NCBI GenBank assembly: GCA_020186115.1
Contig: WSYJ01000186.1
Location: 2,091,501-2,155,500 of the forward strand
Source of the DNA: Histomonas meleagridis
Lineage: Eukaryota > Parabasalia > Tritrichomonadida > Dientamoebidae
Length of the DNA: 64,000 nucleotides
Reading direction: 5' to 3'
Shown here: in pieces, positions 2,652 to 51,991 of the stretch
Position numbering within the stretch: position 1 is the stretch's first letter
Layout of the letters: the number at the start of each line of letters is the position of its first letter
Program-made: the position numbers and the translations under genes
Notes under the pieces: generated by a model
The model's input: only the letters and a program-made list of their open reading frames with translations
Database searches by the model: none
What the model was told of the DNA's origin: nothing

Positions 2652-3719
2652 TTAGAGAGGGATGTACTTTAATGACCTCTTCCTTATTATCAAAAATGCC
2701 ACAAATGCGATGATTGCAATTCCGACGACGATTACTACAGTACTTATTGTGATTTTACCTTCTGTTGTAAGTTCGGAATTTTGCTCAATTTCTATCTCTT
2801 CGTCCATTTCGTTCGCTTCGTTGGATGCACATGACACTGCTGTGACGGAGTATTTCCACACTGTGTTTGCGCTCTTCGATTGGATTGTTACGTCGAACTT
2901 CTCTCCGACGCTTGGAAGACGTGCGGGCTTGAACTTAACTATTCCAGAGTACATAGCCGTGTTTTCGGTATATAATTTCTGTGATACTGAAATCGATTTG
3001 CCATTGCAAGTTATACTAACTTTTGTGTCCGATGGCATGTTATGAGCTGATTGGCTCTTTGGATTCCATTGACGGCTGAATGACCAATATGAATATATCA
3101 AATCAGATGGAACAGGTCCTGGTGGTGGATATGCAATGAATTTCGGAGAGGATGTGGACGTGCGTGGGAATTGCATGACACGAAGTGCGGAATAATGACC
3201 AACAACACCAACTGCAAGTTCACTTAATGTGGGAAGTAATAACCAACGACGATGACCAAGGCTATCAACACCATTATCATTCATGTAGCTGTTGATTGAA
3301 GCACTGGCGCATGCTGCTCTTGAATGCCAATAGATGTTAGATTTACTGGCTGCTAAACCACCACCTTTAGTATAGCAAGAAAGAGATGAGGAAAGGCTAT
3401 GTGAAAACACATTGTTGGTTTCCATTATGAGACAGGCTTGATTCTGTTCTTTGATAAGAGTTGAATTTGTTGACTTCTTGAGTGTTGAAAGTCCTGTAAG
3501 ATAACGGAAGAAATTGAGGCGATTAAGAGCATCAGTATAATCTTGAGCGGCATGCTTTCCAATGTTGCATTTTGATGATGAAGCTGTATGACAACTTCCA
3601 GTATGCTTAGCTTTGTAGAGGGAATTATATTTTGAGCAAATAGTCGACTTGCTTCTGCTTTGGAGCTCATTCCATGTCACAGTGGCGGAGAGCCCAAATG
3701 AGCAAAGAAGGAAGAGCAT
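2652..3719 (-). CDS. CAP/SCP-domain surface protein with C-terminal anchor
   Basis: This is a 355-residue predicted type I membrane protein. A short hydrophobic signal peptide (about 1-12) precedes a CAP (SCP/PR-1) fold: LNRLNFFRYLTGL matches the first CAP helix, NNVFSHS supplies the first histidine, and NDNGVDSLGHRRWLLLP is the conserved GHRRW element seen in bacterial and trichomonad CAP proteins. Nine or so ectodomain cysteines suggest disulfides. After a beta-rich domain (about 225-300) and an acidic stretch there is one membrane helix (about 320-343) and the basic tail RKRSLKYIPL. The likely location is the cell surface. The ligand or activity is unknown. An AACCGAAT element lies just upstream of the ATG. 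Confidence 0.8.
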   Translation of the reverse strand: MLFLLCSFGLSATVTWNELQSRSKSTICSKYNSLYKAKHTGSCHTASSSKCNIGKHAAQDYTDALNRLNFFRYLTGLSTLKKSTNSTLIKEQNQACLIMETNNVFSHSLSSSLSCYTKGGGLAASKSNIYWHSRAACASASINSYMNDNGVDSLGHRRWLLLPTLSELAVGVVGHYSALRVMQFPRTSTSSPKFIAYPPPGPVPSDLIYSYWSFSRQWNPKSQSAHNMPSDTKVSITCNGKSISVSQKLYTENTAMYSGIVKFKPARLPSVGEKFDVTIQSKSANTVWKYSVTAVSCASNEANEMDEEIEIEQNSELTTEGKITISTVVIVVGIAIIAFVAFLIIRKRSLKYIPL

Positions 3720-11190: not shown

Positions 11191-11212
11191 TATCGGCATT
11201 CAGAAAAATTGT

Positions 11213-11318
11213 CAAATATAGGATAATTCTGAACATTTACCCAACGACCAAACATCAATTGAAATCAAATATAGGATAATTCTGAACATTTACCCAACGA
11301 CCAAACATCAATTGAAAT
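11213..11318. repeat. Perfect tandem duplication, 2 x 53 bp
   Basis: Positions 11213-11265 and 11266-11318 are identical 53-bp units beginning CAAATATAGGATAATTCTGA and ending CATCAATTGAAAT. The absence of any mismatch indicates a recent duplication. It lies in the upstream region of the spermidine synthase gene. Confidence 0.95.
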
Positions 11319-11686
11319 CCTGTGTAACGTATTAAAAATGTGCCTGCGAACGTTCGCCGATCATTGTTCATAAACTTTTCCGATCAAAATCTACAGAAAA
11401 TATTCAAAACTGAATTTTATCGTTGTCATTTTTACACAATAAATTTCTAGTTAATTAAGACATTTAATATTATAAAAATTAAAGAAAATAATAAAAATCA
11501 AACAGACAGATCATAAATAAATTTATAAAACTTAATATGGTGAATATTTTAAGATATTTTCATTTGCTCAAAACGGTTATTATAATGTGTGGCTGGTCTT
11601 GAGGCAAAAGGGCATTGAATTATCTTTTATTTGAGAGGCAAAAAACAGGTGAAGTCAAAAAATTCAATGAAGCTTCATTTTTAGAA
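11319..11686. promoter_or_regulatory. Upstream region of spermidine synthase with initiator
   Basis: AACGGTTATTATAATG lies near 11572-11587. A TCATTTTT initiator-like element is at 11675-11682, placing transcription start only about 10 nt before the ATG at 11687, as is usual in trichomonads. In-frame codons upstream of 11687 (to 11615) have no ATG and no homology. Confidence 0.55.
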
Positions 11687-14964: not shown

Positions 14965-17331
14965 ATGGAGACAATGTCTTCTTGTTCATCAAGAGAAGGA
15001 CTTCTCGCAAAACGTTCCAATAGTCCTTCATTTTCTCGTACCGTCAGAGTTTTATTTAAGCGACTTCATCTCATAAAAATCAGAAGAATAGCATTCATCA
15101 TTGAATTTATAATTGGCTTAATATTATGGCTTGTTCTTTATCCTGTTTATCTTTTCGCTCGATGGGATTACGATGCTATTGAAGATCCACCGATAAATTA
15201 TTCAAGTCTCATTCCTCTTTCATTAGGTGTAATGTTTGCATCTCCGAATGTAACACTTGTTTATGCACCTGATTGTGATAACACACGACAAATTCAACAA
15301 TATATTGATCTTATTTTGTCATATCTTCCGTCCCTTAATATTTCCCTTAACTTTTCTTTAGATGTACGTTTTGTCAGCACACCCACTGAAATCATTAATA
15401 CAATTTATTCCAAAGAAGATAGTGGTCTTGGAATATATTGGTCAAATGCAAATCAATCCGATGCGTTAACATCACCTAAAATTGATTCATATTACCAAGT
15501 TCCATCAGGAAGTCCAGGCGGTGATCTCCAAATCCTTATGTTTCGAGTGATCAGTTACATGCAATATGATTTTGAATATACACTTTTCAACTTTAGTTCA
15601 ATGACATATGCTCGTCCTGCCACGGAGGTTCTCTCTGACATTGATATTTTAGTTGGAATGTTCTGTGTTATGCCTGTCATTATAATTGGTCTTCCCGATC
15701 TTCAAATTATCCTTGAAGAAAAAGACAGCAAAATACAAACGTTGGCATTCTTAATGGGCTGTAGTGAAGTCGCTTATTGGCTTGTCGAGTTTATAACGCA
15801 AATAGTTCTCTCTATAATTCCATATATATTCTTTTGTTTGTCTATGTCTTATTGGTTTTTAATGGAAGGGACATCATTTACATTAATATTAGTAATATCA
15901 TTGTTATTTGTGATATCGCATGTGTGTTTTGAGATGTTTGTGACAACATTCTTAAAGACAGGTAAAGCTGGAAGAATGTTAACTGTCATTTTGTTGTTTA
16001 TGGCCATTTTCTTCACGTATCTTCATCAGTTTTATACGTTACAAGATACGAATAGTAGTGATGCTGTGAAACATGTTTTTTCGATATTTCCAATCTCTTC
16101 ATATATCATGGAAATGGTTACAATATATCGCGAAGCTAAGAATTCGAATCCTTTAACATGGGATGATATAACACGCAATGATATTGCATATCCGATTTGG
16201 TATGGCTTCTTATGGATGCCGATTGATGCTGTTGTATATTTCTTATTATTTTTATTATGTAATTTGATTAATTCACGTAACTTCGGTACTCCTTTAATGA
16301 CATTTACTGAGTTATTTTCATCAAAAGCTTGGAAACGATTATTTTCGAAACGTGACATTAATTTCGAGAATTTGAACTCTAATGAAGAAATTATTAATGT
16401 CCAACATTTATCAAAGACTTATCATGGAGATCGAGTCATCACAGCACTTACAGATGTCTCGTTTTCGATTAAGATGCGCGAAGTCATTGTAATCATTGGG
16501 CCAAATGGCGCAGGTAAGTCAACGTTATTAAACACATTATCAGGTGCATTAATCCCTTCCGAAGGAACAATTAGTTTATTTGGCGAAGAGCCCACGAAAC
16601 GATTTCAAGACATCCAAAAATATTTAGGCGTTTGTTTCCAAGATAATGTCATCATTCCATATTTAAATATCCGTGAACATTTCGAATTATTTGGTACATT
16701 TAGAGGGTTATCACCAGAATCGATTAATGAAACTATGTATTTCTTTACCAATACGTTACAATTGACCGAAATGATCGACAACAGAGCAGGCGATTTATCC
16801 GGTGGCCAAAAGCGGAAACTTTGTATCTCAATATCATTATTAGGTAATCCTCCGATTATTATTATGGATGAACCCACTGCAGGCGTTGATATTCAATCAC
16901 GACAATTAATATGGAAAACAATTTCTTCTTTAAAGGATTCGACTTTGATCATTACAAGTCATGCATTAGAAGAGGCTGAAGCTGTAAGCTCGAGATTATT
17001 TGTTGTGTATGGAGGACAATTATCTTTTGCTGGAACTGCAACTGAATTAAGAAATCAATTTAATTGCGGATACGTGTTAAGAGTAGAAGGTAATATCGAA
17101 AACGTGTTGGAATTAGCAAAGAAATATCAGGAAAACGCAAAATTGGCTGATGAAAGAAATGATACTATACATTTGGGAATGGCAGATAATATACCGCAGT
17201 TCATTATGGAGTTCGAACAAAGAAAAGAAGATTTGGGAGTCATATCGTATAGCTTTAGCGTAGAGCAATTGGAGGATATGCTGCTCAAAATTATACAAAC
17301 GGAAGAAGCTGCGTATAACGGTGCCAATTAA
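14965..17331 (+). CDS. ABCA-type half ABC transporter
   Basis: The 788-residue product has one membrane domain followed by one ATPase domain. A first membrane helix (about 45-68) is followed by a large non-cytosolic loop of about 150 residues with Asn-rich glycosylation-like sites, then a bundle of about six helices (about 225-440) of the ABCA/ABC2 type. The ATPase domain from about 470 has Walker A GPNGAGKST (about 511), Q-loop VCFQDN, signature LSGGQKRK (about 611), Walker B IIIMDEPTAGVD (about 630) and the H-loop ITSHALEEAEA. All motifs are intact, so it is probably active, as a dimer, in lipid or sterol movement (inferred from family). A longer frame to 14863 lacks an ATG. Confidence 0.9.
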   Translation: METMSSCSSREGLLAKRSNSPSFSRTVRVLFKRLHLIKIRRIAFIIEFIIGLILWLVLYPVYLFARWDYDAIEDPPINYSSLIPLSLGVMFASPNVTLVYAPDCDNTRQIQQYIDLILSYLPSLNISLNFSLDVRFVSTPTEIINTIYSKEDSGLGIYWSNANQSDALTSPKIDSYYQVPSGSPGGDLQILMFRVISYMQYDFEYTLFNFSSMTYARPATEVLSDIDILVGMFCVMPVIIIGLPDLQIILEEKDSKIQTLAFLMGCSEVAYWLVEFITQIVLSIIPYIFFCLSMSYWFLMEGTSFTLILVISLLFVISHVCFEMFVTTFLKTGKAGRMLTVILLFMAIFFTYLHQFYTLQDTNSSDAVKHVFSIFPISSYIMEMVTIYREAKNSNPLTWDDITRNDIAYPIWYGFLWMPIDAVVYFLLFLLCNLINSRNFGTPLMTFTELFSSKAWKRLFSKRDINFENLNSNEEIINVQHLSKTYHGDRVITALTDVSFSIKMREVIVIIGPNGAGKSTLLNTLSGALIPSEGTISLFGEEPTKRFQDIQKYLGVCFQDNVIIPYLNIREHFELFGTFRGLSPESINETMYFFTNTLQLTEMIDNRAGDLSGGQKRKLCISISLLGNPPIIIMDEPTAGVDIQSRQLIWKTISSLKDSTLIITSHALEEAEAVSSRLFVVYGGQLSFAGTATELRNQFNCGYVLRVEGNIENVLELAKKYQENAKLADERNDTIHLGMADNIPQFIMEFEQRKEDLGVISYSFSVEQLEDMLLKIIQTEEAAYNGAN

Positions 17332-17729
17332 TTTGTATATTTATTTTATAAATAAAATAATTAATGTTTTTTATTTTGGTAACTGTAATCTTTTTTCTGA
17401 ATTATATTGTTTTGAAATATTTGTTGACACTGTAAAGCATTCTTTGAGTAAAAATTGATTTCCCCGAATTTAATATTTTTATGATGAAATGATAATTATT
17501 TATGTAGATTTGATTTTTTATATCGCGTTGATTTAGTAAGTTTCAAATTTCTCAAACCAGCTTTGAGGCACCCTTTATAATCGGGGCGCCTAAGAATTTT
17601 CATGAATTTTCATCTATGTCATTCTATATTCACAGAAAAAACGCCTGTCAACAAACATTCTCAAAAGGCTGAATCCAAAAGAACGTTACCCAACCTGTGA
17701 ATTGAGTTGACTGTAATTTGCCGACATTG
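17332..17729. other. Intergenic region
   Basis: AT-rich spacer downstream of the ABC transporter. A slightly GC-richer patch (17560-17600, GGGGCGCC) has no recognisable feature. No gene was seen. Confidence 0.45.
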
Positions 17730-17959
17730 ATGTCTAAGGAGGTACAAAAAACTTATTTTCTAATGCACAAAAACATACGAGTTGCAAAGCTTGAAATAGA
17801 TGAGGATGAAACATATCTCATTCTATGATTGAAATCTATAATGAACCACATTTTCCACTATTTGCCCGCGACCAACAAAAGATATCTTTGAGAAAATGGA
17901 TACGGCAACGTGCAATGCCATCTTGTTGGACATATCTAGAAGTAAGAAAATTAAACTAA
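17730..17959 (+). pseudogene. Fragment resembling a bacterial HipA/phage-associated regulator
   Basis: Two overlapping short frames read as one broken protein. An ATG at 17730 gives 33 codons including MHKNIRVAKLEIDEDETYLI, then a stop at 17826-17828. A second frame, whose ATG at 17825 overlaps that stop, gives MIEIYNEPHFPLFARDQQ and SLRKWIRQRAMPS before TAA at 17957-17959. The HKNIPVAxxEID...IYNxEHLPxG...LNxWWxxRxIP pattern is one I associate with small bacterial proteins that accompany HipA-like kinases. This resemblance is from memory and weak. If right, it is a frameshifted relic of a transferred bacterial gene. Confidence 0.35.
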
Positions 17960-18127
17960 TATGGTAAATCAAATATATTCATCACTGATTGAGAAAGTAA
18001 TTGGGTGTTGTGTTCTTTTATTTCGGTTATAATTTTCTCCAATTTGGATTTTTGGTTCATAGAAGATGCACTTTTGAAGTAAATAATTGAATACACTATC
18101 GTCATATAAAAATCGTTAATTTAATGA
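17960..18127. promoter_or_regulatory. Upstream region of the CLASP-like gene
   Basis: ATCGTTAATTTAATGA directly precedes the ATG at 18128, and CACTTTTG at about 18071 is the recurrent promoter motif in inverted orientation. No other feature was seen. Confidence 0.35.
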
Positions 18128-20950
18128 ATGTCGAGTTCTTTTTGTGCACACAAGGCAAAGCAAACAACTATCGCAGATATAACAGAAGAAAATCGTTTGG
18201 CATTCGAAAATGCAGGTTATGATGTTGAGGCAAAAAATCTTCCTTTGGATTTAAATCAAGAATTTGAAAAATTGGAAAAAGAAATATCTGAAAATTCTGA
18301 ATGGGATACTAGAGTTGCTGCTATAAAAAATGTTATGGGTTATATAAATTCTGGTGCATGTGAAAATGACGATTTTGTTCATAATTTAATTAAACTTTAT
18401 TCAGGATTATCTACAGCTATAACCAACTTAAGAAGTACTTTAATGAAGCAAGCTTGTCTTCTTGTTTCACAACTTGCTCGGGAGCTTGGACCTCGTTTTT
18501 CACAAATAGGTGATTATTTACCACCACTCTCAACTAGATTATCACATGGAACTCAAGTAATATCCGAAAGCAGTCAATTTTGTATTATTTCCATTGTAAA
18601 AAATTGTCACACCAAACAAATACTATATGGAATTCTTGAACTCGCCAAAAAGAAAGGCAATGCCAATAAAGAAACGGCAGCAGAGTGTATGTTATTAATA
18701 TTTGAACATTGGAGTTTTCAAATATTAGAACCACATTGGTCTATGATCGAATCATGTATTTTACAACTATTGTCAGATGCATCTGTAGTTGCAAGGTCAT
18801 TTGCACGACAAGCTGTTCGAGCACTTATGGATTCTTCTCCTCAAAAAGCAGAAGGAATTCTCTCCAAAGTTGATCAAAGAACAAGAAATTCGATAGAAGC
18901 CGTTTATTCCGATAGAAAACCGTCAGCTGGTATTGAAAAAATGGTTTTAAAAAACAAATCAAACATCATAAAACCAAGAGCAACTTCTAATTTAATGAAA
19001 CATCGGAAACTGAAAATTGAAAGACAGTATAGTGCAGAAAGAATGGCTGAACGTTCTGTTGTTTCAACAAGTGAAATAGAAACGAGAGAAATTCCGAATT
19101 CGCCAATTACAATTAGGAACAAATGTTTAAACAAAGAAACAAATAAAAGAATCAATCAAAAGAATAAAATGAATGAGACAAAAGAAACAAATCAAAATAT
19201 ACAAAATAAAGAAATAAATTCATTAAATACAAACAAAAAGTTAAATCAGAAATTTAATGAAAATAAAGAATCAAATAATAAAATGAAAGTAAACAAGGAG
19301 CAAAATAATAATATAAGCGAAAGAATAATCAACAAAAATTTAAGTAATAAAATGGGAATAAAAGAACAAAATAATATTCAAAGTAAAGAATTAAATTATA
19401 ATACGAAAATAAATAAAAGGAATATAAATATAGAAACAAACAATAAAACGAAAATTAAAAAAGAGCAGAACATTAATAAAATAAACGAAGATATTAAAAT
19501 GAAACCAAAAACTAACAACAATCAAAGTAAAGAAATAAATCATAAAAAAAAATTTAATGAGGAAACTTATCAAAAGAATTTAAGTAAAGAATCGAATTAT
19601 AGAACAAAATTAAGTAAAGAAATTAATAAAAATCAAAACAAAGAATTAAATCACAAAACGAAATCAAATGAAGAAATTCATCAAAAGAATTTAACTAAAG
19701 AAATAAATTCTAAAACAAAATCAAACAATGAAATTCATAATATCCAAAAGCAAAGAAGAGAAATAAATAATAAAAAAGATCAAACAAATGAAAGCGAAGC
19801 CAAAGCGCCCGAAATTCTTTTTCTTGATTCCATCAAAGAGAATAATTCATTTGATCCAAAATCGGCATCAAAAATATTAAATTTATGTCTTCGACAAGAA
19901 GAAACAATTTCACATTATGCGTTAACAATACTTTTAACATTTCTCAACAAAAATTACAATTTTTTCAATCCAATTCTTCCCAAAGTTATTTCTTTGCTGT
20001 CAATTGTATCAAATAATGAAACAAATTATGAAATTTCATTAAAAATCATTGAAGAAATTTCGGATTTATATGAAATTTCCGATTTAATAAAAATAATTTT
20101 AACGCAAAAACCTTCACAAGCGATATTACATTTAATTTATATAATAATTTATGAGAAGAAATTCGAAATTAACGAAAACATTTATTTAAACTTTTTGGAA
20201 ATTATTATGAAATGTTTTAAATTTAATAATCAAAAAATAAATTTAATAATAAAAACTTTGTATATCAATAACAAAGAATTGTTTTTAAATACAATTGATA
20301 AATTAGAAAATTCCGAAAAAGATAAAATTAAAACAATTTTATCAAATAAAACTAAAAAAATTAAAATTCCGAATTTTCAAGATAAAAATTTCTTTGAGAA
20401 AATTAAAGAAATAATTTTAAGTATTAATATAAATGAATATGAAAACATAAAAATTAACATTTTTAAAGAGTTAAATAATTTCGTTTTAATAAAGAATAAT
20501 AATTTTGATAAAAACATCGGAAATATATTAAAAATAATTTATGATAAATTCGGAATTTTCGGTTTCGAAAATTGTTTTTCTTTAATTATAAAGAAAGAAT
20601 CGATTTTTAACATAATAATTCCAAATTTAATCAATAACAAAAATGATTTAAAATTTTTGTTTTCGTTAATTAAAAATCATTTTAAAATTGATGCAATTGA
20701 TACATTAAAGTTTCTTTATAAGTTAATACCTTTAATAAATGAAATTGATTTACAGAAATTTATCGACGATTTGTATCCAATCTTAAATGAATTGATTGGA
20801 AACGAATCCCCTGAAATTAGACAATTCGTTGTAATGTGTTATGTGGAATGTAAAAAGGTTTTGGACGATAAATTATTCGAAAATTATATTCAGAATCTGA
20901 CAGAACAACAAAAACTTTTGATTTCGATATGCTATAATAGACAAATATAA
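18128..20950 (+). CDS. CLASP-like TOG-domain protein
   Basis: This 940-residue protein probably binds microtubules. Residues about 40-265 form a TOG/HEAT array of CLASP N-terminal type: WDTRVAAIKNVMGYI, LRSTLMKQACLLVSQLAREL, and VARSFARQAVRALMDSSP. The middle (about 330-560) is a low-complexity Asn/Lys/Glu linker built of reiterated KEINxKTK-like units, rich in positive charge as in many CLASP linkers. A second diverged helical array (about 565-940) may be another TOG. The ATG at 18128 is chosen because the nearby ATG at 18124 is in another frame. The stop is TAAA. Confidence 0.75.
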   Translation: MSSSFCAHKAKQTTIADITEENRLAFENAGYDVEAKNLPLDLNQEFEKLEKEISENSEWDTRVAAIKNVMGYINSGACENDDFVHNLIKLYSGLSTAITNLRSTLMKQACLLVSQLARELGPRFSQIGDYLPPLSTRLSHGTQVISESSQFCIISIVKNCHTKQILYGILELAKKKGNANKETAAECMLLIFEHWSFQILEPHWSMIESCILQLLSDASVVARSFARQAVRALMDSSPQKAEGILSKVDQRTRNSIEAVYSDRKPSAGIEKMVLKNKSNIIKPRATSNLMKHRKLKIERQYSAERMAERSVVSTSEIETREIPNSPITIRNKCLNKETNKRINQKNKMNETKETNQNIQNKEINSLNTNKKLNQKFNENKESNNKMKVNKEQNNNISERIINKNLSNKMGIKEQNNIQSKELNYNTKINKRNINIETNNKTKIKKEQNINKINEDIKMKPKTNNNQSKEINHKKKFNEETYQKNLSKESNYRTKLSKEINKNQNKELNHKTKSNEEIHQKNLTKEINSKTKSNNEIHNIQKQRREINNKKDQTNESEAKAPEILFLDSIKENNSFDPKSASKILNLCLRQEETISHYALTILLTFLNKNYNFFNPILPKVISLLSIVSNNETNYEISLKIIEEISDLYEISDLIKIILTQKPSQAILHLIYIIIYEKKFEINENIYLNFLEIIMKCFKFNNQKINLIIKTLYINNKELFLNTIDKLENSEKDKIKTILSNKTKKIKIPNFQDKNFFEKIKEIILSININEYENIKINIFKELNNFVLIKNNNFDKNIGNILKIIYDKFGIFGFENCFSLIIKKESIFNIIIPNLINNKNDLKFLFSLIKNHFKIDAIDTLKFLYKLIPLINEIDLQKFIDDLYPILNELIGNESPEIRQFVVMCYVECKKVLDDKLFENYIQNLTEQQKLLISICYNRQI

Positions 20951-40679: not shown

Positions 40680-40990
40680 GACACAGTATAATTTACGTTT
40701 TGGTTCAATCGACGTTGGTCAATATATCATATATTATATATGATTTGCCAAACTGGTGTTAATCAAAACTTTATACTTTTGATAAATCACATTTTTTCAC
40801 AATTTATCTTGTTCACAAAAGCATAATTCGATAATTAGAAATGATTTCAATGTGACATTTTCTCTAATTTTCATATCTGTTTTTTCATGCTTGTGAAAAT
40901 TAAGTTCTTCTGGATAGTGTGGAAACAAAGTTGAGAAGGTATGCTAAATTGTTTGCACTAAAAAATGCCTTTGAATAGTTTATTTTGAAA
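40680..40990. other. Intergenic region before DUF3447 locus A
   Basis: A 311-bp AT-rich spacer including the palindromic ATATCATATATTATATATGA near 40725-40745. No gene was seen. Confidence 0.5.
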
Positions 40991-43379
40991 ATGAGAAGCA
41001 ACAGATCCAAAAGTGATACTTCAACAAAAAATTATGATGAAATAGACTCTTCCTATATTGATTTTCTTATTGAACTCAAACATGTTGTGTTTAATCTCGA
41101 TGAAAATAATTTTGAATTATCAATAGATCAAACAATGAAATTATTTGATTCAAATTTCCATTCATTCAATTCTGTTATTATTACCTTAGTTTATTATGCA
41201 TTTTGTTCACTAAAGAAAGAAATTGATATTTACATAAAATATTTAGAAACAATACAAACTAAAGAAGAAGAACTCAACAAAAATTCACCCAAAATTATAG
41301 AAACTTTTTCTTATTATTTATCTGAGATAGAATCACATGAATCATATTATATAATTGAACAAATGATTGAGCGGAATTTAATAAATTCAGATATTGCTAA
41401 AAACATTGATTCTGAATATTTTGCGCATTATAAACCAGAAGGTGAATATGAAAAAGATGATGGTATCGAAAGGTGCATATTTTTCGGGAGTCCAAATCAT
41501 GATTTTATTGAACTAAAGAAAAATGATTGGGAACTTCATAAGAAATATGTTAAAGAAGGAATAAATCAGAATGAAATTGTGAAAATAATTCGAAATGATG
41601 ACATAGAAAAACTTCAAGAAATGTCATCACAACCAAATATTTTTTTCAAACAAAAAATTGAACCATCACTTTATGAAAGGTATTCATTTATTAATGAAGA
41701 AAATGTATCATTAATTGATATTGCAGCATTTTTTTTCTTCAGTTAAATGTTTTAAATATTTACTTATGATGGGTGCAAATGTAGAAGATACAGGTAAATA
41801 TGCAATTGCAGGTGGAAATTTAGAAATTATTCATTTATGTGAACAAAATCATATCTCTTTTCAAAATGCATATGAAACAGCAATTATATTTCATCAAAAT
41901 GATATCTTTAAATATCTTTATGAAAATAAAAAACATCTAAAGAAAGAAATTAATCCTAATAACATTATTAAATTTGGAAATTTATGTATTAAATGTGGGA
42001 ATTATGAAATTCTTTCATTTTTGTTAAAAGTTGGGATGAAAATTGATGAATCAATGATTAATCTTTCAGCAAAAATTGGTAACTTCTATCTTGTAAAATA
42101 TTTTTTACAAAATAATAAAATTCCTAAAAATATTTTTGTTTTTACAGTAGAATCAGGTAACATTGAGCTTGTTAAGTATGTTTTAGAACAAAAAGTTATT
42201 AATCTTAATTCTAAAAATATTTTATTATTTCATTTGATATTTATATTATATTTTTGATATCTTCATATATTATTTGGAATTTGTTCAAATCATTTGATAC
42301 AGCTCTTATAGTGGCTGCTAGAATTGGTGATATTGAACTTTTTAAATTACTTCTTGAGCAAAAAGGAATTAATATAAATGCTAAAAATATTTATATCTTC
42401 AACTTAATTATAATTTAAATAATACGATATTTTAAAATAATGTTTAGAAATTACTATTTAATTTTGAAACAGCACTTATAATCGCATCTGAACATGATGC
42501 GACAGATATAATTAAAATTCTTCTTGAACAAAACAAAATTGAAATTAATCAAAAAAACATTTTTTTGATTATTTTAGAATTCATTTAAAATTTTTGATAT
42601 TTAAAAATTTAATTTGGAAATTGCTTAAAATATTTTATTCAGCACTTATGTTTGCATCAGAAAATGGTAATAAAGAAGTGGTTAAATTACTTCTAGATCG
42701 AAAAGAAATTGATTTAAAAGCTAAAAATGTATAAATATCATGTTTGCTATTTAATTTTTTAATTTTGGATTTCAAAATATATTATGAAGCTCATTTAAAA
42801 TATTTGAAACACCACTTATGAAAGCTTCAGGCCAAGGACACACAGAAATAGTCAAATTACTTCTCGAGAAAAAAGTAATTGATGTCAATGCAAAAGATGT
42901 TTTATTATTTTGTATAAAATATATTTTAATATTTTGATATTTTACAACAAAATATGGAATTTTTTTAATATATTTGAAACAGCACTTATATTAGCAGCTT
43001 CAAGTGGTTTTACTGAAATAGTTAAATTACTTCTTGAACAAGAAGGAATTGATATTAATGCTAAAGATATTTATTTGTTTTATTTGATATTTATCTTTAT
43101 AATTTTGGATTACAAAATAATATTTGGAAATTATTTAAATTATATTATAAAGCTCTTACACATGCATCTGAAAAAGGTTACATAGATATAGTTAAATATC
43201 TTCTTCATTCTAATAGTATTTATTTCTATACTAAAAATATTTCTTTCATTAATTTGATGTTTATTAATATATTTTTTTGTTTCAAAATAATATTTTCTAA
43301 AGCACAAAAATTAGCAGAATACCATAATCATATTGAAATCGCAAATTTGCTCGCTAAAAAATTGGAAGATATGAAATAA
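40991..43379 (+). CDS. DUF3447/ankyrin locus A, with frameshift and spacers
   Basis: The head (ATG at 40991) is a DUF3447 protein. It runs in one frame to about 41736, where a run of eight T (41729-41736) shifts the frame relative to its two relatives, then continues from about 41737 (SSVKCFKYLLMMGANVEDTG). After the conserved ENIELVKYVLEQK-type repeat it becomes an array of seven single ankyrin repeats separated by AT-rich spacers that contain stops. Every repeat reads cleanly, for example ALILAASSGFTEIVKLLLEQ. The last repeat ends in TAA at 43377-43379 within TAAA. Whether one protein is made depends on spacer removal and the T-run. It could also be a pseudogene. Confidence 0.6.
42216..43301 (+). 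repeat. 170-bp ankyrin repeat/spacer array A
   Basis: Spacers lie at 42216-42301, 42386-42471, 42556-42641, 42726-42811, 42896-42981 and 43066-43151 (all 86 nt) and 43236-43301 (66 nt). The 84-nt ankyrin units between them start at 42302, 42472, 42642, 42812, 42982 and 43152. The period is exactly 170 bp for six units. Spacers share only loose consensus: an AATATTTAT-like start, TATTTGGAAATT in the last third, TTTGAAACA at the end. Confidence 0.95.
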
Positions 43380-44816: not shown

Positions 44817-45872
44817 TTAATCCAATAAAAATGAGTTTCCAATTGTTTCCAACTTGTTTATTATTGTTCGGTCAATTTTCATTCCGTCTTTTTCTAAAAA
44901 TGAAAATATTTCATAATTATTATATTTATTACATTTAATTCCTAATTCTCTTAAATCTTTTATTTCATTAAGTTTCTTATCATAAAAATAATGAAAAACT
45001 TCATTTCGATGAAATTCAGTTGTCGTTTCTAATTCTTCTTCAAATAATGAATTATTCGATTCGCATAAATGAATAATTTCGAAGTTTCCACCTGCAATTG
45101 CATATTTTAATGTATTTTCTACATTTGCTCCATTCATATGTAAATATTTAAAACATTTAACTGAAGAAAAAAATGCTGCATAATCAATTAACGTAACATC
45201 ATATTGATTAATAAATGAATATCTTTCATAAAGTGATGGTTTAATTGCCTTATTAAAATTAAAATTTGGTTGTGATGACATTTCTTGAAGTTTTTCTATG
45301 TCATCATTTCGAATTATTTTCGCAATTTCTTTTGGATTAACTCCTTCTTTAATTAATTCTTTATGAAGTTTCCAATCATCTTTTGAAAGTTCTTCAATAT
45401 TTGACTTAAATTCCTTATAAATTAATTTTTTTGATTGATGTTTAGTTTGGCTGATTTCTATTTTTGATTTATAATGTGCAAAATATAATGTTTTGATCTT
45501 TTTGACAAAATCTGATTTAATTAATCCTTTTTCAATCATTTTTCCAAGAAGAAATAAAGATTCTTGGGTTTTTATGTCACGCAAATACTTCAGAAATATA
45601 TCATATATTTGTTTATATCGATTTTGAATTGAGTTTTTGTTTCGTTGATCTTCATGAGCTTTCAAAGAAAGTATGTATTGAATAGTTAGATTTTCACCAG
45701 TCCTTTTAGAAGCAAAAGCTGAGTATATGAATCTGGAAACAAGAAGATTAAATGTATAAGGGTAATCAAAAACAAATAAATTAATCGTCGATTGAACTGA
45801 TGTTTCAATGTTATTTTCGTTGAGATTGAAAATAATATTCTCCAATGATTGCGAGAGTTTATACAATTCCAT
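44817..45872 (-). CDS. DUF3447 protein, truncated (locus D)
   Basis: The 351-residue product is homologous to the heads of loci A and B. It shares the N-terminal helical part (NLNENNIETSVQSTINLF), KEGVNPKEIAKIIRNDDIEKLQEMSSQP, then KPSLYERYSFINQYDVTLIDYAAFFSSVKCFKYL and AIAGGNFEIIHLCE. Here the T-run has seven T, giving the uninterrupted frame. The protein ends at LETIGNSFLLD, where the relatives continue with KIGN..L(V/I)K(H/Y)FL and ankyrin repeats, so it is truncated just before the repeat array. The stop codon is followed by an in-frame unrelated extension. DUF3447 proteins are an ankyrin-like family expanded in trichomonads; their function is unknown. Confidence 0.7.
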   Translation of the reverse strand: MELYKLSQSLENIIFNLNENNIETSVQSTINLFVFDYPYTFNLLVSRFIYSAFASKRTGENLTIQYILSLKAHEDQRNKNSIQNRYKQIYDIFLKYLRDIKTQESLFLLGKMIEKGLIKSDFVKKIKTLYFAHYKSKIEISQTKHQSKKLIYKEFKSNIEELSKDDWKLHKELIKEGVNPKEIAKIIRNDDIEKLQEMSSQPNFNFNKAIKPSLYERYSFINQYDVTLIDYAAFFSSVKCFKYLHMNGANVENTLKYAIAGGNFEIIHLCESNNSLFEEELETTTEFHRNEVFHYFYDKKLNEIKDLRELGIKCNKYNNYEIFSFLEKDGMKIDRTIINKLETIGNSFLLD

Positions 45873-49950: not shown

Positions 49951-51991
49951 ATGGAAAATGAGCAAAAAAAGACTATTCAACAAAATGAGTTGGAAACACT
50001 TAAATTGATTAAGCAGAGCATTTTTGGGATGAACAAAGAAAATTTTTCTCAATCAACAAATTTAATAATTTCCAAATTTGATACTAATTTTCCAATATCT
50101 TTTAACACAATTATCAGCCAAATGGTATACATAGCTTTTGTGATAAAAAGGCACGATTCTGACATATATTTAAATTTTCTAAACGAAATAGAAATATTTG
50201 AAGAAAAAAATCATATCGAATCAAAAATTATTGAAGCATTTACTCAATTTATAATTAAAAAATATTCACAAGAATCATATTATCTTCTTGATTGTCTGAT
50301 TCAACGTGGTTTACTTGAATCAAGTATAATCAAAAACATTTTAAAAACGAAAGCATTTTTTATCCATTATTTATCAGAAGAAGAACTCGAAAAATTATCA
50401 AAGAGCGGACTATCATTTTATGAAGGTTTTATGTATCTAATCAGTGAGAACATTGATGAAATCAAAAAGAATAATTTTGCACTTCATAAACAATTAATTG
50501 CGGAAGGAGTTAACACAAATGAAATTGCTAAAATAATTCGAAATGATGAAATAGAAAAACTCCAAGAAATATCATCACAAGAAAATTTCGATTTTAATCA
50601 AAAAATTGAACCATCACTTTATGAAAGATGTAACTTTGTTAATAAAGAAAATGTTACATTAATTGATTATGCAGCATTTTTTGGATCTGTTAAATGCTTT
50701 AAACATTTACTTATGAATGGTGCAAATGTAATAAACACAGGCAAATATGCAGTTGCAAGCGGAAATGAAGAAATTATTCATTTATGTGAACAAAATCATT
50801 CATCATTTAAAAAAACATATTCAACAGCTATTAAATTCCATAAAAATGATATTTTTAAATATCTTTATGAAAATAAACTTGAACAAATCAATAACTTTAA
50901 TATAATTATCATGAAATGCTTTTTATATCATAATTATGAAGCTTTTTCATATTTAGTTGAAGAAGGAATGAAAATTAATGATGATATTATAAACGAATCA
51001 GCTAAAATTGGAAACTTATTACTTATCAAACATTTCCTTAAAGAAAATGAACTTCCAAAAAATATTTTAATATTTTCAGCTCAATCAGGAAACGTTGAAC
51101 TTGTGAAATATATTTTAGATAAAGGAATTGATATTAATTATAAAATTATTATTTTATTTTGTTTGAAATTTATTTTAAGCATTTTATTTTCTAAATTATT
51201 ATTCGGGAATTATTTAAATATTTTTATACTGCATTAATTAATGCTTCTTTATATGGTCGTATTAATCTAGTTAAATTCCTTCTTGACCAAAAAGGAATTG
51301 ATATAAATGCAAAAAATTTATATTTGTTTTATTTAATATTTATTTTTATGTTTTAATATTTGCAAATATATTTTAATATTTGATCAAATAGTTTGAAACT
51401 GCACTTTTTTTAGCAGCTGTATATGGTTACATCGAAATAGTTAAACTACTTCTTGAACAAAAAGATATAGATATTAATGCTAAAGATATTTATTTATATT
51501 ATATTATGTTTATTTAAAGAATAAAATATTTGAAAATAAGATTTGGATTTTTCTAAAACTATTTTCCACTGCACTTATAAAATCATCACAATTTGGTAAA
51601 ACAAAAATAGTTAAATTACTTCTTGAACAAAAAGGAATTGATATTAATGCTAAAGATAATATTTATTTGATATGTTATTGATTTATTATTGTAATTTGAA
51701 GTTTGTTAATAATATTTGGAAATAATTTATTTTGTTTTGTACAGCACTTATTGCGGCTTCTAAAAATGGACATCCGAAAATAGTTAAATTACTTCTTGAG
51801 CAAAAAGGAATTAATGTCAATGCTAAGGATATTTATTACTTTTAGTTAATGTCTATTTTATTAAATTGATGTTTCATATTAATATTTGGAAATTGTTTAA
51901 ATTATTTAAAACAGCACTAAACATGGCATATTTGTGGGATAATGTTGAAATATTCAAATTATTAAAAGACTATGCAAATAATGTTCATTGA
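49951..51991 (+). CDS. DUF3447/ankyrin locus B with spacer array
   Basis: The uninterrupted head covers residues 1 to about 398: a helical N-terminus (ESLETLKLIKQ-like, NLIISKFDTNFPISFNTII), EGVNTNEIAKIIRNDEIEKLQE, SLYERCNFVNKENVTLIDYA, and ankyrin-like units up to VELVKYILDKGIDINYK. From 51145 single ankyrin repeats alternate with frame-breaking 86-nt spacers: ALFLAAVYGYIEIVKLLLEQ, ALIKSSQFGKTKIVKLLLEQ, ALIAASKNGHPKIVKLLLEQ. A final unit, ALNMAYLWDNVEIFKLLKDY, ends in TGA at 51989-51991. The first spacer happens to be open, so the simple frame ends at 51237. Full product or decayed array is undecided. Confidence 0.6.
51145..51913 (+). repeat. 170-bp ankyrin repeat/spacer array B
   Basis: Spacers lie at 51145-51230, 51315-51400 and 51485-51570 (86 nt), 51655-51743 (89 nt) and 51828-51913 (86 nt). 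The 84-nt repeats start at 51231, 51401, 51571 and 51744; the terminal 78-nt unit with stop starts at 51914. Spacer sequences are as diverged from each other as from array A, sharing TATTTGGAAAT-type and terminal (A/T)ACA or ACT elements. Confidence 0.95.

Follow-up and report, generated by a model that had tools for sequence, protein, structure and literature searches.

Programmed bypassing, known from the byps of Magnusiomyces mitochondria and from T4 gene 60, depends on matched take-off and landing codons. The noncanonical introns of euglenids and diplonemids have paired ends and are longer than the elements described below, whereas the internal eliminated sequences of ciliates are many short AT-rich insertions in coding sequence and need a split between germline and soma. 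To our knowledge, no such split occurs in trichomonads. Among spliceosomal introns, lengths of 16-17 nt have been described in mikrocytids (PMC10245619) and of 23 nt and upwards for the type B introns of Trichomonas vaginalis (PMC12316389); Stentor with 15 nt and Bigelowiella with 18 nt complete the ultra-short cases (PMC10245619, PMC12316389, PMC6679479). For Histomonas meleagridis, the main text of the genome paper (PMC8529796) describes introns as scarce and does not mention ankyrin.

In the H. meleagridis DNA analysed here, a 64-kb stretch (hereafter, the window), pieces of ankyrin repeats are separated by elements of 17 nt. These are like ultra-short spliceosomal introns in being very short, of uniform length and placed between coding pieces, with the 16-17 nt mikrocytid introns and the 23-nt minimum of Trichomonas nearest in size. 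They share with the byps and T4 gene 60 gaps their position inside frames, between codons and many per gene; with the euglenid and diplonemid introns, the absence of GT-AG; and with the ciliate sequences, the pattern of many short AT-rich insertions in coding sequence that would be cleanly lost, although their length is fixed at 17 nt and they lie between codons. No report of such 17-nt elements was found in the literature searched, in agreement with the original prediction, which knew of no described system that fits. The first array in the window belongs to gene A, whose parts (all on the plus strand) are as follows.

40985..42218, +, N-terminal non-repeat domain, a PF11929/DUF3447-type ankyrin relative (ORFs)
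42219..42295, +, loop 1: 17 nt, GAT, 17 nt, GAT, 17 nt, GGA, 17 nt, then GAT ACA
42299..42388, +, ankyrin exon 1, TALIVAARIGDIELFKLLLEQKGININAKN
42389..42465, +, loop 2: four 17-nt elements, codons between them AAT, GAT, AGA
42469..42558, +, ankyrin exon 2
42559..42635, +, loop 3: four 17-nt elements, codons AGA, GAT, GGA
42639..42728, +, ankyrin exon 3
42729..42805, +, loop 4: four 17-nt elements, codons GCT, TGG, GAA
42809..42898, +, ankyrin exon 4
42899..42975, +, loop 5: four 17-nt elements, codons AAA, GAT, GGA
42979..43068, +, ankyrin exon 5
43069..43145, +, loop 6: four 17-nt elements, codons GAT, TGG, GGA
43149..43238, +, ankyrin exon 6 (43149-43218 translated; end placed by eye)
43239..43295, +, loop 7: only three 17-nt elements (43239-43255, 43259-43275, 43279-43295), codons GAT, TTT (by eye)
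43299..43379, +, last exon with stop codon at its end, KAQKLAEYHNHIEIANLLAKKLEDMK*

The codons for the repeat-opening T at 42299, 42469, 42639, 42809, 42979 and 43149 lie exactly 170 nt apart, as had been claimed for six units, and the seventh, at 43299, follows 150 nt after the sixth. The exon pieces at 42299-42388, 42469-42558, 42639-42728, 42809-42898 and 42979-43068 are open and ankyrin-like, which bears out the statement that the repeats stay open, and every spacer breaks the frame identically, also as stated. The calculation that 68 nt per repeat must go was likewise right, but the idea of one constant-length interruption per ankyrin repeat was not. Each 86-nt spacer contains four separate 17-nt elements (4 x 17 = 68), the usual number per repeat, with a single codon kept between each. 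A single 68-nt intron per repeat was rejected because the codons within the loop are kept.

The unit layout is D-[17]-x-[17]-x-[17]-G-[17]-x-T-A-L, and the consensus spacer reads D, ATTTATTTGTTTTATTT, n1, ATTTATTTTAATAATTT, n2, ATTTCAAAATAATATTT, GGA, AATTATTTAAATTATTT, x, ACA GCA CTT. Since the surplus 68 bases are the four elements and the other nine bases, from D to x, are three codons, D-x-x-G-x-T-A-L remains when the elements are taken out, and this is the canonical ankyrin loop. In the alignment of the spacers three hypervariable triplets and one conserved GGA were seen, with conserved 17-mers separating them, and the fourth isolated codon encodes Gly in 194 of 220 units, like canonical ankyrin. 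Exon pieces and isolated codons together have the properties of an ankyrin repeat (~33-34 residues, D-x-x-G-x-T-A/P-L, helices), in the loop only if the elements are left out. Matches to PF12796, the Pfam ankyrin model, are present in the H. meleagridis genome.

The N-terminal frame of gene A has one break, at a T-run near 41730, and is covered by the ORFs 40985-41746 and 41715-42257; the break site (window 41715-41746) is a run of eight T. Two copies of this domain, at 49951-51237 and 44817-45872, are in frame at that site as judged by eye, and the break in gene A is a sequencing error or a recent mutation. The copy at 44817-45872 (minus strand), the third of this domain, has no ankyrin array that could be seen behind it. 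A second array with the layout of gene A was found at 51148-51991, and it belongs to gene B (49951 to 51991).

49951..51147, +, intact N-terminal domain; start ATG at 49951, open frame continuing into loop 1, to 51237
51148..51224, +, loop 1: four 17-nt elements, codons GAA, TAT, GGG, then TAT ACT
51228..51317, +, ankyrin exon 1
51318..51394, +, loop 2: four 17-nt elements
51398..51487, +, ankyrin exon 2
51488..51564, +, loop 3: four 17-nt elements
51568..51660, +, ankyrin exon 3, with one additional codon, AAT at 51658-51660, before the first element (by eye)
51661..51737, +, loop 4: four 17-nt elements, codons TTG, GAA, GGA (by eye)
51741..51830, +, ankyrin exon 4
51831..51907, +, loop 5: four 17-nt elements, codons AAT, GAT, GGA
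51911..51991, +, last exon with stop codon at its end, TALNMAYLWDNVEIFKLLKDYANNVH*

The automatic parse put the extra codon of gene B at n2, and placement by eye assigned it to the end of exon 3. A last exon with a stop closes both arrays. All 12 loops of the window can be parsed as 17-nt elements plus codons, if three elements are allowed in one loop and an additional codon in another; Gly stands at the G position in 8 of the 12, and no stop occurs among 49 isolated codons when a four-element parse is forced. Elsewhere in the window, a perfect 53-bp tandem duplication lies at 11212-11319.

When a 371-base piece of the array was used as query, at least 164 matches were obtained genome-wide (40 of 1,625 candidates scored). 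In 33 arrays 278 unit spacings were measured, 221 of them of 170 nt, and this agrees with the original prediction that spacer length is constrained. These array counts exclude 21 of the loci L001-L030 (L001-L012, L014, L016, L018, L022-L024 and L028-L030), which overlap the window or L031-L050. The remaining spacings were 173 (19), 171 (10), 153 (9), 167 (3), 150 (3), 156 (2) and 169 nt (2), plus nine further values seen once each. Spacer length is thus constant only in the main, as the units of 153, 173 and 167 nt and a few one-base deviations exist. Most changes are codon-sized (173, 167) or the clean loss of one element (153). By eye, n2 is extended to two codons in most 173-nt units, one 17-mer is missing from the 153-nt units with all codons in place, 156 nt corresponds to one element less and one codon more, and 150 nt to one element and one codon less. 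Outside the array L021, 8 of 257 spacings do not fit the formula 102+17a+3b (169 twice, 171 four times, 174 and 230), in a list that omits three spacings above 260 nt; one spacing of 162 (L033) fits only formally, by assuming three additional codons, and a shortened element seems the likelier reading. L021 (C72:129447-132790) is a decayed array with 25 exon stops and one-base length changes, including 6 of the 10 spacings of 171 nt, and is a natural control for loss of constraint. At L061 (C120:2314700-2315900, minus strand), ~28 tandem 20-nt modules, each a 17-mer plus a triplet, were seen by eye directly before an ankyrin exon; this is either a very long single-codon loop or a run of modules gone astray.

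The third element followed by GGA occurs in 4,927 copies in 43 Mb (control, 4), and the start of the first element after the same flank at 3,719 places (control, 0). Loops without elements, in which the same flanking codons are joined directly, gave 23 matches with up to three mismatches, 21 of them with Gly (control, 0). Ten of the 23 lie on one stretch of C39, where 861 bases of an element-free array were read and found open throughout. The spacers, which had been described as strongly diverged, are so in the window; elsewhere they follow a well-conserved consensus.

The arrays are amplified and alike across loci, as would be expected if they were dead or silent, that is, satellites or unexpressed cassettes grown from one unit with a 68-nt insert, the 17-nt regularity being inherited. 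The decay of L021, the broken N-terminal frame of gene A and the ~28 tandem modules of L061 also speak for this explanation, which we nevertheless regard as improbable in view of the codon-level results. Codon tests were done on the 170-nt units only (221 of the 278 spacings; 220 long enough, 213 distinct). At n1, n2 and x of the 213 distinct units no stop was found, against 45.6 expected and a minimum of 30 in 2000 column shuffles; when stops were counted once per array, site and codon, the result was 0 of 330 against 29.5 expected. Triplets read one base to the left contain stops in 186, 70 and 165 of 221 units (offsets 109, 129 and 169). When the frame of n2 is continued into the third element, a stop is encountered in 204 of 221 units (offset 142). 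The exons of the 170-nt units hold 3 in-frame stops, against 104.6 expected from column shuffles.

These stops also bear on the idea that the spacer is translated, with a programmed -1 frameshift of the ribosome on the sequence T_TTA_AAT of the fourth element. By eye, the heptamer is present in the consensus spacer, where no stop interrupts the ankyrin frame; however, the stop at offset 129 lies in that frame and excludes the mechanism for the 70 units concerned, and the 153-nt units would fall out of frame. The open frames needed on both sides of a slippery heptamer are thus lacking in these units, and we give this explanation almost no credence.

Rates of change were estimated from 61 nearest-neighbour pairs of the most similar units (512 differences). 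The variable isolated codons change fastest, at 0.13-0.25 per site, with 79 nonsynonymous changes and 1 synonymous change, followed by the exons (0.047-0.062), and the elements are slowest (0.015-0.040). The fastest-evolving part of the unit is therefore its single codons, in which the changes affect the amino acid. The spacers, described in the original prediction as strongly diverged, are restricted in sequence as well, since genome-wide the elements change more slowly than the exons; their slow change points to constraint, or could in part be due to gene conversion. In the exons, changes between close pairs were 38 synonymous and 194 nonsynonymous. As ~23% of changes would be synonymous in the absence of selection, the exons show no overall excess indicative of purifying selection, and the ankyrin repeats seem to diversify. 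The isolated codons are evidently read and the elements left out, and selection strongly implies that the elements are skipped, which we consider very probable.

By a strict count, only 14 of the 33 arrays combine stop-free exon windows with spacings that are all allowed, a count that takes in natural array ends or last exons and the plainly decayed L021 (25 of the 46 stops). The N-terminal domains have open frames of 387-581 aa at all of the 99 best-scoring loci, taken from 8,255 candidate pieces and biased to intact ones. Pseudogenes or satellites are expected to lack codon-level selection, and L021 is an exception among the arrays in that it looks decayed. In general the arrays show the opposite: no stops in the isolated codons and few in the exons, isolated codons changing at the amino-acid level and elements more slowly. 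The genes are not generally dead, gene A being an example of a broken N-terminal frame.

Elements of 17 nt were also found in other genes, with sequences unrelated to those of the 170-nt arrays, which is a further argument against dead or silent copies of one unit. Free-length alignment of ankyrin loci gave mixed lengths, and a scan with fixed lengths was used instead, in which a profile of uninterrupted repeats was aligned with skips of one length n, from 5 to 40. The ten loci scanned were the top matches of the Pfam model, not matches to the 170-nt array, and the profile came from 28 uninterrupted repeats of these loci and the window. The gain peaked at 17 (351), in phase 0, followed by 20 (325) and 14 (310), and rose by only 22 when split codons were allowed. 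One locus, L059, was discarded as a carrier of elements, its interruption being an ordinary one-base frameshift; without it 17 kept the highest gain (262; 20 gave 240 and 14 gave 222). The signal is carried by L053 and L054, to which L058 was added by hand, its gain in the scan being only 3 and its element hand-placed. The gain of L051 (11) is not independent, since this locus includes a neighbouring array of the 170 type. The elements of these genes, such as GTTTCATTTTTTCATTT or TTTTATTCAAAGTGTTT, have ends similar to those in the arrays and occupy the x|x, G|x and K|D junctions, with neighbouring loops that have none. By eye, a second family (L061, L062) has the same layout with yet other 17-mers. 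Length is thus constant and below 20 nt, as in ultra-short introns, with the exception of one 18-nt interruption in L058 and the few one-base deviations, and these unrelated elements suggest that the 17-nt length is not just inherited.

P0001, a homologue from another source, is at most 55% identical to anything scored in the H. meleagridis genome and runs into its first loop. In its tail, L=17 is the only one of 11 testable lengths that places Gly and Thr-Ala/Pro-Leu correctly (random tails, 0.0003). In the DUF3447/ankyrin multigene family of trichomonads, the Tritrichomonas foetus and T. musculus proteins P0020, P0022 and P0039 share a related N-terminal domain, and P0020 and P0022 have repeats as the Histomonas genes do. 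Compared as protein, P0020 differs from the Histomonas arrays in having uninterrupted loops before its end. The three annotated proteins end at or near a loop, and these ends may point to unrecognised interruptions there. P0022 ends in a loop with a tail that, by eye, does not fit a 17-nt parse, and for this reason the 17-nt system is not claimed for Tritrichomonas. Relatives were not found in the viral and prokaryote contig collections searched. A protein search with a generic element-free repeat chain gave nothing above 62% identity among the best 120 of 899 proteins, hence no sign of a joined product in the database, which says little, as the database may lack Histomonas RNA data.

The ends of the elements were surveyed in 11 clear single elements, hand-parsed with DxxGxT as guide and leaving aside the ambiguous interruptions of L054 and the 18-nt one of L058, and in 75 diverged array copies. 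Most have the form RTTT-N9-RTTT, in which nine bases separate two copies of a purine followed by TTT. In the diverged copies a purine comes first in 93% and T at positions 2-4 in 75-84%, and the complete RTT...TTT is present in 20 of 75; the final three T are found in all 11 single elements, and 34 of the 48 stretches in the window end in TTT. In 67 open frames of at least 200 codons, RTTT-N9-RTTT is not avoided, with 45 occurrences against 36 expected (96 against 66.8 in antisense; shadow frames unfiltered and N-terminal domains included). These ends alone therefore cannot be the signal, and more information is needed. No conserved RNA structure or hairpin marking the elements was detected in the 60 of 195 loops sampled, with folding z values of -0.08 for the consensus and -0.41 on average for 30 natural loops. 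Conserved pairing as in the euglenid and diplonemid introns is thus not a feature of the Histomonas elements.

One possibility is that these are extreme spliceosomal introns of 17 nt, not GT-AG, handled by the ordinary spliceosome. The genome contains a Prp8 C-terminal domain, and the introns of mikrocytids (16-17 nt; PMC10245619) and Stentor (15 nt) are precedents for the size. However, the introns of this genome look different. Kinases with 'stops inside' had been considered as further carriers of elements and were dismissed, as the six read (L063-L068, picked for a stop inside the match) have ordinary-looking introns, and these start with GTATGT and end with CTAACACATAG in 6 of 6. The motif CTAACACATAG, a variant of the 3' motif of T. 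vaginalis, gave 76 matches (control, 21), and the T. vaginalis-type 3' splice motif ACTAACACACAG gave 3 against 2 in the control. Unlike the kinase introns with their strong signals, the 17-nt elements have neither GTATGT nor CTAACACATAG, and GT...AG occurs in 0 of the 48 stretches parsed in the window. They also differ from ultra-short spliceosomal introns in their number (~4 per 34-residue repeat), in lying between codons in all parsed cases and in leaving single-codon exons of 3 nt in series, so that processing by the ordinary spliceosome is very unlikely.

A different possibility is translational bypassing, in which the mRNA retains the elements and the ribosome, having read the codon before an element, jumps 17 nt. 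Every parsed element falls between two codons (phase 0), and this is so at five loop junctions, K|D being known from one case, and in different genes; 'exons' the size of a codon are also easier to reconcile with a ribosome than with a spliceosome. Against this, take-off would have to occur from 18 different codons at n1 and 20 at n2, whereas the elements usually close with TTT, so the matched take-off and landing codons of gene 60 or the byps are absent. There is also no conserved hairpin, and the 24-repeat array L048 would need more than 90 hops. The Histomonas genes further differ from byps and T4 gene 60 in being nuclear and in having a constant gap of 17 nt. With take-off not tied to particular codons and no sign of a stalling signal, bypassing is placed second to removal at the RNA level, and we consider it possible but unlikely.

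Our preferred reading, towards which we lean with some reserve, is that these are protein-coding ankyrin genes in which the beta-hairpin loop D-x-x-G-x-T is, for most of the family's repeats, encoded by single codons separated by non-coding 17-nt elements, and that the elements would be removed from the RNA as ultra-short intervening sequences. Recognition would depend on their own ends, mostly RTTT-N9-RTTT, together with further information, and not on ordinary splice signals; this information could reside in the conserved cores, which differ between the four elements. As the elements lie between codons, any pairing of element ends would keep the frame and lose only loop residues, and a loop could thus gain or lose complete codons while the protein stays intact. 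What can be read directly from the DNA is the layout and its spread over the genome, the selection acting on isolated codons, the slowness with which the elements change and the recurrence of 17 nt in unrelated contexts, and from these we infer that the elements are left out while protein is made.

The arrangement is real, genome-wide and precise to the codon. Since the elements lack the normal intron signals of this genome, protein could be made from such genes only by a process that skips them or cuts them out, and no system known to us would fit. An undescribed process of gene expression in this trichomonad lineage may omit some 15,000-20,000 nuclear 17-nt elements (the 4,927 copies of one element taken three to four times) without spliceosomal signals, joining or reading exons of down to one codon, so that loop codons would be individually movable and the family would diversify residue by residue; we judge the arguments for and against this wider proposal to be evenly balanced. 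If the elements are removed from RNA, the nucleus of H. meleagridis would have, beside ordinary splicing, an excision system with one-codon exons and a 17-nt size ruler. If the ribosome skips them, translational bypassing would occur here on a scale far above that of any case known to us. Either way, the open frames of a large gene family of this poultry parasite stop at the first element, and the surface loops of the family, which change fast, would have gone unnoticed.
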